From NCBI GenBank assembly GCA_012862575.1, contig BLSF01000005.1, forward strand, positions 124,001-188,000: a stretch of 64,000 nucleotides of DNA, written 5' to 3'. Source of the DNA: Parietichytrium sp. I65-24A. Lineage: Eukaryota > Sar > Bigyra > Thraustochytrida > Thraustochytriidae. Numbering within the stretch: the stretch's first letter is position 1; each line of letters starts with the position of its first letter. The translations under genes were made by a program, and so were the position numbers. The notes under the pieces are model-generated. The model made no database searches. It saw nothing but the letters and a program-made list of their open reading frames with translations, and was not told the origin of the DNA. Below, in pieces: positions 50,633-63,208 of this stretch.

Positions 50633-51899
50633 CTAGTTGTTCTTCTTGCTCGCAGAAGCCTTGGTGGAGCGAGCACGCTTGGGCTTGGTGAGCAAAGTGT
50701 AAAGGATTTGCAAGAAGAGAAGGAAGTAGCTTGCGTACATCACGACCCCAGTGTTAAAGGCCACAGGTGACACGGAGCAAGGCACGTGGTCGATATGCTG
50801 ATACTTATAGGTGAGAGCGCAAATCACAATACCTCCAATCATCTGACTAAGCTGCAGAATGGTGATGATCCACGATGGGATGAAGCGTGGCCACATGCCT
50901 ACAGTGCTGAGGAAGTAGTAGCCGTACATGATGGCGTGCACCTGTTCGCAAGAGAAACAAAGCCACAAAACATTGAGTCAGAGCACCGCTTGATATTGGG
51001 AAGGGTAGGCGTTGGGAAAGGGACTTACAGAGTAGTTCATGCAGATAAAGTAGATTCCGGCGCTGTTTTGCGCGCTGTAGCTTGCCCAGCCTAGAACAAA
51101 GCAAAGGTCAGAGATTTCCATTCGCACCAATTGAAGTGAGGTCTTCGAAAGACGGGCCACACCATTGTAACTTACAGTACAACAACACTGTCACGTGATG
51201 ATACCAGTGCAAGAAGATGAGAGGCTTTTTGCGCAAGACGATGAAGACAGTGTCGACGAGCTCAGGGATTTTAGAGATGATGAAGAGCCATGCCCACAGC
51301 CCGACTTCGCTCGCTCCGAAGGTGGAGCAGACCGGGTCGCAAATGCTGTGGTAGAGTCCCTTATAGTGAATGGTGGCCAACAGGTGCGGTACGGTCCGGG
51401 CGACACCAACCCAGCTGAACAGGGAGAGCGACATATTCCACAGAGCGAGTGGCCACTTGAGACCCAGCGGAGGCAAGCAAGACATGAACATGCGGCCACC
51501 AAAGATTACGACAAGATAAAGAGTCACCAGAATGATTGGGATCTGGAAATACTCGCGCATGTACGCAGACAACGGACTGCCGTCAAAAATGCCTTCATGC
51601 TTCTTGGAAAAGTAGAGCGGGTCTAACTCCGGCACCATCTGCCAAGTGCTCTGAAAGAGACACTTGTCGCCCTTGGTCTTGAACACATGATGCGTCGCAT
51701 TGACCTGTTCGATCGTCCCTTCCCAGGCCGCATCGTACGCGGTAAACATGTCTTTCCACCAATCACCGCTTGGCTTCCACGAGTTGGGCTTGGCCGCGTC
51801 CGGGTTGTCAAACACAAAGCGCAACTTCTCTAGTTGCGCCAAGGCTTGCGGCGCATACAGCGCGTACACCTCCTGCACCTTGCTCTTGATTTCGTCCAT
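50633..51899 (-). CDS. ELO-family fatty acid elongase, ELOVL6-like
   Basis: Three exons, 51176-51899, 51029-51090 and 50633-50941, joined over 85- and 87-nt GT-AG introns, give 364 residues. ELO proteins are ER 3-ketoacyl-CoA synthases that condense malonyl-CoA with acyl-CoA, the first step of chain elongation. The His box HWYHH (231-235, in PLIFLHWYHHVTVLLYCW) has the form found in saturated and monounsaturated-chain elongases such as ELOVL6 rather than the HVYHH of PUFA elongases. KIPELVDTVFIVLRKK and MNYSVHAIMYGYYFL are also conserved. The N-terminus has about 60 extra residues. The tail ends KKNN, a KKxx ER-retrieval signal. Both splices restore family homology (LLYCWASYSAQ, MNYSVHAIMY). 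Confidence 0.94.
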
Positions 51900-53663
51900 C
51901 GTGTTTCACTCCAGCTTGTCCCTTCGATTCCGGCTTCCAAGTCAGTGTGGTGCTGCTCTCCTCCTCGCTCAACGTTGCGCACACCACTGCCGCCGCTGTG
52001 ACAGATGTGACAGCGAGTCACCAACAAGGCGTCGTTACACAGTTGCTTACTCATGGCCCCTCAGTCGAGGCGATAATTGTGGCTACTTGCATGGCGTCAG
52101 CTGCCGCCCAACGCCAGGTGTGCCTATCCTATACTGGGTAGGTGGGTGGGTGGGTAGGTGGATGGATGGAAATCTTACAACTGGCCTCAGAAACCTTACC
52201 GCCTTCAGCTCTTCCCTCCTCACCTCTCCAGCTCTCAAGCTCTCCCACTTTGTTGCTTTGTTGGAGATTGAGAGTCAGAATGTGAGTCAGGTCGTCCGTG
52301 AAAGAGTGTTTCATTGAGCTGTCTTCTCGATCAGAATTCAGAATGGCCAGTCGCTCATTCGCGCTTCCCATCGCTTCCCCCACGTCCACGCAGTTCACGT
52401 TCACTGTACTGGTACGTACCGTAATACGTTCACACTCGACACACTCGACTAGTTGGGAAATTTCGGGGTCTGGCAAATTGAGGGTTTGCGTTAGCTTTGC
52501 GCATCACTGTGCACGGATGAGGGGCACAATTACTCACTGAGTATGTTACATAACTCAGTCGCGGTAAGGCATTGCAAGACGCGGGACTTTAGCTTTTTGA
52601 GGAGTGCTCATGATGACCTGGGACCGCATTTAACGAAATGAGAATAGGACTCTTTTTGCGAGCTCCACCTTGCCTCTTTCTCAGCGTTCAGGGAGCGTTC
52701 ACTCGGCAAACTTTCACAATGACCTGAGTTGTATTGACTGTGAGTTGTATTGACTGTGAGTTGAAGATCCGACGAGGTCTGGAAAAGATTCTTCAACTGT
52801 AAGTTTTTTCAGAATTCAGAATTCCGAACTCTCTATCTCTTTTTAACCTAAACAAAAGCTCAAATTCAGGATTTGAAATAGTCAACCCAGAGCTTTTATG
52901 AAATTTAGAGCCTGTTCTCGAGCACGTGCGGCCGCGCGAAGATGGGAAACGAGAGACGCGCTACAGAGCCTACCACGTTTGGCTTCTCCGAAAGCGCTTA
53001 CTCGTACTGTTACCAATAGCAGGTTTGAAGGATGACGGTAAGGATGTAGTACATATTGTACAGAGTGTTAGCAGGGCTAGGGAGGCAAAAAGGAACAAAC
53101 AGAACCTTCAACGAACATTGCGAAGGTCGAGTCATCGTTATCAGAGTCATACGCTTTACACTAACCATCCACTGCACCATGATTCAGCGAAAAAACAAAA
53201 AAAAAGAATCTTTGGGCCCTACCTCGGCCATTATACTTTATGCTGTTTGCACCATACCGGTACGTTTCAGAGTGGCGGAAAAGTAGCACTGACCACCACC
53301 TCTTGTACATCTTGTACATCTTGTACATCTTTGTACGTCGCACGTGTGCCATCCGCGGCGAACAGAGAACTGATCCTGTGTCCCCGTCGAGGTACCCGGT
53401 ACTCACAGTCAGTACGCGAGGCGCACGCACGGGAGGAGTACAATCAGTAGAGAGAGAGAGAGAGAGAAATACATAGATACATAGACACATAGAGGGAGGA
53501 AGGAGGTGGGCAGTTTGAGGAGTTTGAGGAGTTTGAGCAGCTTGACGGGTTCAAGTAAAGGGAAGCAAAACAGGGATTTGTGTTGGCGAGTGTGGGAAAG
53601 CAAGCGAGAAGAGTGGAAAATAGGAGATAGGAGATAGGAGATTGAAAATAGCGAGCGAGCGGG
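51900..53663. other. Divergent promoter region, ELOVL and Sec14/FABP gene
   Basis: About 1.76 kb without a supportable gene. It contains GTGGGTGG repeats (52140-52170), two copies of TTGACTGTGAGTTG (52734-52762), a TTGTACATC 9-mer (53302-53331), ACTCACAGTCAGT (53401-53413), an AG tract (53448-53467) and TTTGAGGAG repeats (53514-53540). Confidence 0.6.
53302..53331. repeat. Tandem 9-mer CTTGTACAT x3
   Basis: Three copies upstream of the Sec14/FABP gene. Another 9-mer array (TTTGAGGAG) lies at 53514-53540. Confidence 0.88.
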
Positions 53664-61257: not shown

Positions 61258-62022
61258 ATGTCGTTGCTTCGCGCGACTGCAGGGCGAGCGCTCGGCGCCG
61301 CTAGCGGATATGGAAGGTCAAGAGCAAGTGTGCTTTCGAGCCCGATGGTCAGGCTTGGAATGGTTCGTTTGATGGGGTCGTTCCCAAGTCACACAGTGCT
61401 GTCCATGCCGGCGCTGAGTCCTACAATGGAGCAGGGAACCATCGCTGGATGGACGCTCAAGGAGGGCGATGAGATCATGCCAGGGTCGCCAATCTGCGAG
61501 ATTGAGACCGACAAGGCCACTGTGGACTTTGAGGCGCAGGATGAAGGGTTTCTTGCAAAAATCCTTCTCGACGCTGGGGTGTCAGATATCAAGGTCGGGA
61601 CCCCAATTGCGGTGATGGTGGAAGATAAAGGCGACGTAGATGCGTTTAAGAACTTCACCGCTGAAGATGCTGGCGCACCAAAGCCTGCTGGAGGAGACAA
61701 GAAGGAGTCCAAGCCGGAATCTAAGGCTGAGAAGCCACCGGCCCCGAAAGAAGAGAAGAAGTCTGCTCCAAAACCAACACCAAAGGAAGAGAAGAAGCCT
61801 GAGCAGAAGGCTGCAGCCCCACAACCGCCAAAGGAGCAGCCTAAACCTGCTGCCCCTCAGCCTAAACCTGCGCCAACATCTTCGCCAAGCTTCCCTCCCA
61901 TGAAGTCTCCGCTAGCTCCTGTGTTCAAGAAAGCCCAGACCAAGTATGAAGACTTATATGGTCACACTTTGATGAGAAGACCAACGATCCCTGCACAATC
62001 TAAGGCTCCCGAAAAGAAGTAG
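61258..62022 (+). CDS. Mitochondrial lipoyl-domain protein without a catalytic domain
   Basis: 254 residues from the ATG at 61258; the open frame extends upstream only to a TTG. The N-terminal 40 residues are rich in Arg, Ser and Ala and lack acids, a mitochondrial presequence (MSLLRATAGRALGAASGYGR). One lipoyl domain (about 46-123) matches PDH-E2 and protein X, with PALSPTMEQGTIAGW and EIETDKATVDFE, in which K86 should carry lipoate. A long Pro/Lys/Ala hinge (about 137-208) follows, as between E2 domains, and then a short basic tail (SPLAPVFKKAQTKYEDLYGHTLMRRP). There is no peripheral-subunit-binding domain and no acyltransferase core. It may be a reduced E3-binding protein or an extra lipoyl arm of the pyruvate dehydrogenase complex. 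The stop is a plain TAG, so truncation by the window is excluded. Confidence 0.86.
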   Translation: MSLLRATAGRALGAASGYGRSRASVLSSPMVRLGMVRLMGSFPSHTVLSMPALSPTMEQGTIAGWTLKEGDEIMPGSPICEIETDKATVDFEAQDEGFLAKILLDAGVSDIKVGTPIAVMVEDKGDVDAFKNFTAEDAGAPKPAGGDKKESKPESKAEKPPAPKEEKKSAPKPTPKEEKKPEQKAAAPQPPKEQPKPAAPQPKPAPTSSPSFPPMKSPLAPVFKKAQTKYEDLYGHTLMRRPTIPAQSKAPEKK

Positions 62023-62283: not shown

Positions 62284-63208
62284 TTACAGCGACTGCTTTG
62301 GTGCATCGGACTTGGCAAACTCTGACTTGATTTTTCTAAGCAACTGATAAGATCCAGTGACCGCGAGAGCGATATTGACAGCAAACAGATTGTAGTTTTT
62401 CGGCGTGATCACCATGGAGTACCTTGACCAGACGAAGCCGGTTCCGCAAAGCGCAGCTTGCTGAATGGTAGAGATGTTTTCGACGGGCCTGTTAAAGTCC
62501 AAAATATTGGTGATACTCAATGACCATTTGAACGTAGGTGCCCAAAACATGGACTGCATTGTTGACGAAAAACATTTTACCGTGAGTATCATAACACGTT
62601 CGAATTCGGAACCTCAGACGTCAGAGAAAACGTACCGTAAATGGACCAGCAGGATGGTGCAATAAATTTTGCATTGTTACAGGAAGTGGCATATTTTTGA
62701 CAGCGGCCTGAATTCGAGGCCCAGCAACAGTAAGCCCAGCGCCAGCAGCAAAGATTGCGGCAAGCCCAATCGGCGAGAAGTTGTCCTGCGCAGGCTTGCC
62801 CTCGAGCTTTTGCTGTTGTTGGTACTCATAGCCTCGCTTAAGCTGAACAAGCTGCGCTACCTCGTTGAACGCATGGCACGTCAACAGAAGATAGTTTCTC
62901 GGTTGCACACGGTACGCAAACAGCACAAACAATCCGGAGTACACGGACAACGTGGCTGTCATAGGAAGCGAAATCACTTCAGGCCCTTTCAGCGACATGT
63001 CATACACTGCTGCGCCCACTAAGCCCCAGTTCATCACCGGGCCCCAGAAGTGCTTTTCAAGACGGACACACAATCAAGTCAGTTACACACCTTGCAAAGC
63101 TTTCCCACCGCCCTCGCCCCCAAAGCTCCATCAACTCACTGTCGTCTTCCAGCCATACTCAGGGTGAAAGAACGCCGCCCGCAACGCACTAATTCCAAAC
63201 TGCGACAT
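62284..63208 (-). CDS. Fused mitochondrial pyruvate carrier, MPC1-MPC2 in one chain
   Basis: Three exons, 63140-63208, 62636-63052 and 62284-62553, with phase-0 GT-AG introns of 87 and 82 nt, give 251 residues. The first half is MPC1-like: [41 protein letters not shown] and [10 protein letters not shown] (about 22-96). The last 100 residues are MPC2-like: [50 protein letters not shown] and GSYQLLRKI. Between them lies a Gln-rich stretch and an extra hydrophobic segment ([19 protein letters not shown], about 110-128). MPC1 and MPC2 normally act as separate inner-membrane proteins forming a heterodimer that imports pyruvate. Here one gene makes both halves. Each junction restores conserved sequence, so the fusion is not a mis-joined pair of genes. 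Both HP-GP-type entry motifs are present. Confidence 0.92.

Follow-up and report, generated by a model that had tools for sequence, protein, structure and literature searches.

A single-chain MPC1-MPC2 fusion with a probable linking helix in the thraustochytrid Parietichytrium sp. I65-24A

We analysed a 64,000-nucleotide stretch of contig BLSF01000005.1 from Parietichytrium sp. I65-24A (the window), which carries on its minus strand, from 63208 to 62284, a gene encoding an MPC1-like and an MPC2-like half in one polypeptide. The gene model rebuilt from the sequence comprises three exons and two GT-AG phase-0 introns and gives a product of exactly 251 amino acids, reproducing without change the 251-residue, two-intron spliced frame proposed in the first-pass annotation. 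The features of the gene are as follows:

63140–63208, minus strand: exon 1, residues 1–23, with the ATG at 63208; short N-terminal segment of the MPC1 half.
63053–63139, minus strand: intron 1, 87 nt, GT-AG (GTGAGT...AAAAG), phase 0.
62636–63052, minus strand: exon 2, residues 24–162; MPC1 helices H1–H3, linker, extra hydrophobic segment and MPC2 start.
62819–63052, minus strand: coding region of the MPC1-like three-helix domain, residues 24–101; 59% identity (47/80) to human MPC1, phmmer E 4e-25.
62717–62779, minus strand: extra hydrophobic segment, residues 115–135, at the hydropathy peak; probable linking transmembrane helix.
62554–62635, minus strand: intron 2, 82 nt, GT-AG (GTACGT...TGCAG), phase 0.
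62284–62553, minus strand: exon 3, residues 163–251 and the stop codon; MPC2-like three-helix domain (Pfam MPC) and C-terminal tail.

The neighbouring gene on the plus strand (61258–62022) is convergent and encodes a 254-residue protein whose single lipoyl domain most resembles that of pyruvate dehydrogenase E2 (best PDB match 1.8e-51). This protein has no catalytic domain, and four E2-type catalytic domains are found elsewhere in the genome. The ends of the pyruvate importer gene and the pyruvate dehydrogenase-related gene lie 261 nt apart. Farther away in the window (51108–51905, minus strand), a fatty-acid elongase-like open frame with a HWYHHVTVLLYC motif, recognised by eye, fits a protist that makes polyunsaturated fatty acids (PUFA).

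Exon 1 ends at a phase-0 donor (GTGAGT at 63139), and a six-frame genome search matched residues 1–24 at this exon. Both introns have negative codon-usage scores in all three frames, and retention of intron 2 would introduce a stop shortly past the HHPAGPFT motif that opens the MPC2 part. MPC1 H1–H3, the linker and the HHPAGPFT start are all read in one frame of exon 2 with zero in-frame stops. The fusion is independent of any splice prediction, because the joint sits inside this single uninterrupted exon.

These features bear on whether two adjacent genes could have been made to look like one, whether through an overlooked stop, faulty sequencing or misassembly. The locus is represented in one assembly only, and it is not in itself improbable that a joint of about 50 codons stays open; in codon usage, the joint alone is equalled by 17% of open random windows. 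Against such an artefact, which we consider very improbable, both domains occupy the same frame, the joint lies in a single exon flanked by canonical GT-AG phase-0 introns, and the space between the halves is too small to hold a terminator or a promoter. The same arrangement is also described for published MPC proteins with seven putative transmembrane segments (TMSs), in the paragraph that treats them in Medrano-Soto et al., 2020 (PMC7176098). The MPC1-MPC2 fusion is real.

The Pfam MPC model (PF03650) matches the chain twice, with a whole-protein E-value of 9e-64 and a score of 212.9 bits, where the cut-off is 27. In comparisons with the solved structures, the N-terminal half scored 91 bits with human MPC1 as opposed to 43 with human MPC2, and the C-terminal half scored 102 bits with human MPC2 as opposed to 34 with human MPC1. 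These preferences are far above chance, so that the halves are correctly assigned as MPC1-like and MPC2-like, in keeping with the first-pass annotation, which had recognised one of each in the chain. Identity of the C-terminal half to human MPC2 is 53% (44/83) over MPC2 residues 34–116. Aligned with one another over 89 positions, the halves share 25% identity, as expected for MPC1 compared with MPC2 and not for a recent tandem duplication.

The residues that line the pyruvate pocket have been listed as S35, L38, Y64, F68, F71, L82 and H86 of MPC1L and K49, T78, W82, L96 and N100 of MPC2 (PMC12007569). In alignments to human MPC1 and MPC2, all 12 of these positions are of the human type in the fused chain (N33, L36, Y62, F66, F69, L80 and H84 in MPC1 numbering; K49, T78, W82, L96 and N100 in MPC2 numbering). 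The position corresponding to MPC1L S35 is Asn in the fused chain, as it is in human MPC1, and Tyr61 and Thr200 of the fusion were assigned from the same alignments. Both cis-prolines (human MPC1 P75 and MPC2 P91) are kept. By its domain matches, the character of its halves and these aligned pocket residues, the chain qualifies as a member of the mitochondrial pyruvate carrier family (SLC54, TC 2.A.105, PF03650). With a pocket of the human type, the single chain most likely imports pyruvate in the ordinary pH-driven way, presumably in mitochondria.

Outside the pocket, several residues depart from the human proteins. K66 of human MPC2, a gate salt-bridge residue in the outward-open state, is replaced by Asn, and R68 of human MPC1 by Leu; both replacements count against a single-chain carrier. 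The human MPC2 N-terminal helix-turn-helix residues D18, E21, N33 and R39 correspond to A, K, H and F, in a part where the alignment is weak. Loss of the helix-turn-helix might be expected, because the N-terminal end of MPC2 is no longer free in the fusion.

The linker between the halves is 35–45 residues long. It begins with a polar, Gln/Lys-rich loop (residues 97–114) and continues into an Ala/Gly-rich stretch that ends in Gly-Pro (Gly134-Pro135). Within this stretch, residues 115–133 reach a Kyte-Doolittle hydropathy of 1.73 in a 19-residue window, the highest value anywhere in the chain and on a par with its strongest MPC helix (the six MPC helices range from 0.60 to 1.67), and the hydrophobic moment of the segment is low (0.11). 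The first-pass annotation had placed an extra hydrophobic segment at residues 110–128; the segment is present, with its peak at 115–133 instead. AlphaFold2, run on exon 2 as a single sequence, modelled helices at residues 118–132 and 134–142 with low confidence (mean pLDDT 47).

In the MPC heterodimer, each subunit has three helices and the subunits are parallel, both N termini facing the intermembrane space and both C termini the matrix (PMC12007569). The orientation of MPC in mitochondria is disputed, and both orientations published with structures keep the subunits parallel (PMC12007569). Direct fusion of parallel three-helix subunits requires an odd number of linking crossings, of which the extra segment would supply one; a linking helix in the SWEET sense is thus likely, and the segment probably crosses the membrane once. 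Of the 3-1-3 layout suggested in the first-pass annotation, the fusion and the extra hydrophobic segment are borne out, the parallel subunits favour a single crossing, and a transmembrane linker is plausible.

If the segment were instead a surface, re-entrant or amphipathic element that does not cross the membrane, the halves would be antiparallel or the topology would be unlike that of SWEETs. The low confidence of the model, the Ala/Gly-rich composition and the helix break at Gly134-Pro135 are all compatible with this arrangement. We consider it unlikely: a hydropathy of 1.73 compared with 0.60–1.67, together with a moment of 0.11, is not what a surface helix would have, and the conserved residues of the cavity require halves that lie parallel, as they do in the solved heterodimer.

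About equally improbable, in our estimation, is that the chain is a precursor (polyprotein) that is imported and then cut in the linker to yield separate MPC1 and MPC2 subunits for a heterodimer, the hydrophobic segment serving as an import or stop-transfer signal. A linker of this length, made of a polar Gln/Lys-rich loop and an Ala-rich segment, is compatible with cleavage, and methionine 144 stands just before the conserved MPC2 part. A free MPC2 N terminus, however, would be expected to keep the human helix-turn-helix residues, which are missing here, and the other seven-TMS MPC proteins of the same plan, as Medrano-Soto et al., 2020 briefly describe them (PMC7176098), suggest that the intact layout is stable. 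The reading that we favour, and consider probable, is a covalent, single-chain MPC1:MPC2 carrier of pyruvate and protons with a 3+1+3 plan.

Neither the Pfam model (at E-values up to 10) nor the protein, used as its own query, found another MPC domain in the 42.5-Mb, 172-contig assembly. Separate MPC1 and MPC2 genes, the prospect raised by the first-pass annotation as telling against its proposal, were thus absent from the assembly-wide results. Gaps in the assembly could hide another copy, which makes this result strong and not absolute. Being the one MPC match found in the genome, the fused chain may be able to perform all of the pyruvate import. No relatives of the fused chain were found in the viral contigs or prokaryotic genomes scanned.

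Several further observations were made elsewhere in the assembly. The mitochondrial cox1 gene (contig C141, 27000–30000; 36% G+C) has zero in-frame TTA codons outside its broken tail, compared with 25 TTG codons. Labyrinthulean mitochondria characteristically read TTA as a stop (PMC12574857; PMC7799850), and the avoidance of TTA in cox1 agrees with the Thraustochytrium mitochondrial code. A second, partial cox1 copy apparently lies at the same locus. At the end of contig C16 (662700–664676), a copia-like pol frame is followed immediately by the 3' end of an 18S rRNA gene, reflecting either an rDNA insertion or an assembly junction. The 3' end of the 18S rRNA resembles that of stramenopiles; with the cox1 codons, it places the genome probably in Labyrinthulea. 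On contig C66 (8562–22499), a 5583-residue open frame matches the PfaA model at four ketosynthase-like places, with scores under the cut-off of that model, and resembles a large multimodular polyketide synthase.

The first-pass annotation knew of no described natural MPC1-MPC2 fusion. This is contradicted by Medrano-Soto et al., 2020 (PMC7176098), whose section on the family reports several MPC proteins with seven putative TMSs in a 3+1+3 topology. One of them, C5K6B0 (TC 2.A.105.1.8), has a first half closest to an MPC1 homologue (46.7% identity) and a second half closest to yeast MPC2 (55.3%), according to the same passage (PMC7176098), and with this precedent of 2020 a claim of first description fails. 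The seven-TMS kind is covered there in one paragraph, which presents no functional work. In that paragraph the authors favoured duplication of a four-TMS precursor and left possible a fusion of MPC1 and MPC2 with an inserted central TMS, which agrees with the heterocomplex (PMC7176098). The specific resemblance of each half of the present chain to MPC1 or MPC2 would speak for fusion rather than for a fresh duplication.

In the literature searched, we found no mention of C5K6B0 beyond PMC7176098. The search returned no paper on an MPC1-MPC2 fusion or a single-polypeptide MPC, and none tying Perkinsus or a thraustochytrid to the carrier. The range in which its accession falls suggests that C5K6B0 may be from Perkinsus marinus, an alveolate. 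As far as the published description of sequence and hydropathy goes, the two proteins share MPC1-like first three helices, MPC2-like last three helices and one central extra segment in one chain; unlike C5K6B0, beside which it is set by that description, the present gene comes from a labyrinthulomycete stramenopile. What is new here is this additional lineage, a clear gene model, a genome-wide search that found no separate MPC gene, and a pocket mapped on the 2025 structures.

The fused chain also resembles the human MPC1/MPC2 and MPC1L/MPC2 heterodimers (SLC54; PDB 8yw6, 9mnw and 9giv; PMC12007569) in its 59% match to MPC1, its 53% match to the MPC2 core and its 12/12 pocket residues. The human heterodimers, by contrast, consist of two polypeptides without a linking helix, and their MPC2 has a free N-terminal amphipathic helix whose helix-turn-helix network is not kept here. 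Engineered covalent MPC dimers were looked for in the yeast heterodimer paper and were not found.

Compared with SemiSWEETs, full-length members of the SWEET and PQ-loop (cystinosin) families have an extra linking helix (PMC12007569). The present chain is like them in combining two three-helix halves with one probable extra helix, a likeness in layout between families that the account in PMC7176098 places in the same clan. Unlike them, it has no SWEET or PQ-loop Pfam match (including PF03083 MtN3_slv) at E-values up to 1; the one model that matched was PF03650. We offer, as a tentative suggestion, that the labyrinthulomycete line and the C5K6B0 line each fused MPC1 with MPC2 on their own, with a linking helix gained and the separate genes replaced both times. 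The step from SemiSWEET to SWEET would then have been repeated within the pyruvate-carrier family, and the fused form would be the sole mitochondrial pyruvate carrier of the organism.

In the single-chain carrier that we favour, the N-terminal half would provide the three helices of MPC1, and the C-terminal half would provide an amphipathic or linker helix followed by the three helices of MPC2. The hydrophobic segment between them would cross the inner membrane once, leaving the halves parallel as in the MPC1/MPC2 heterodimer. Folded into a 'heterodimer' within one molecule, the chain would then move pyruvate together with a proton by the rocker-switch mechanism of the two-subunit carrier, in which H83 (the histidine of MPC1) and K171 (the lysine of MPC2) of the fused chain are predicted to take part. 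Covalent linkage would fix the stoichiometry at 1:1 and exclude homodimers. The existence in nature of a covalent MPC1-MPC2 chain would independently back both the 1:1 heterodimer model and parallel subunits, and the fused chain could serve as a single-gene MPC for structures, inhibitor assays and complementation.
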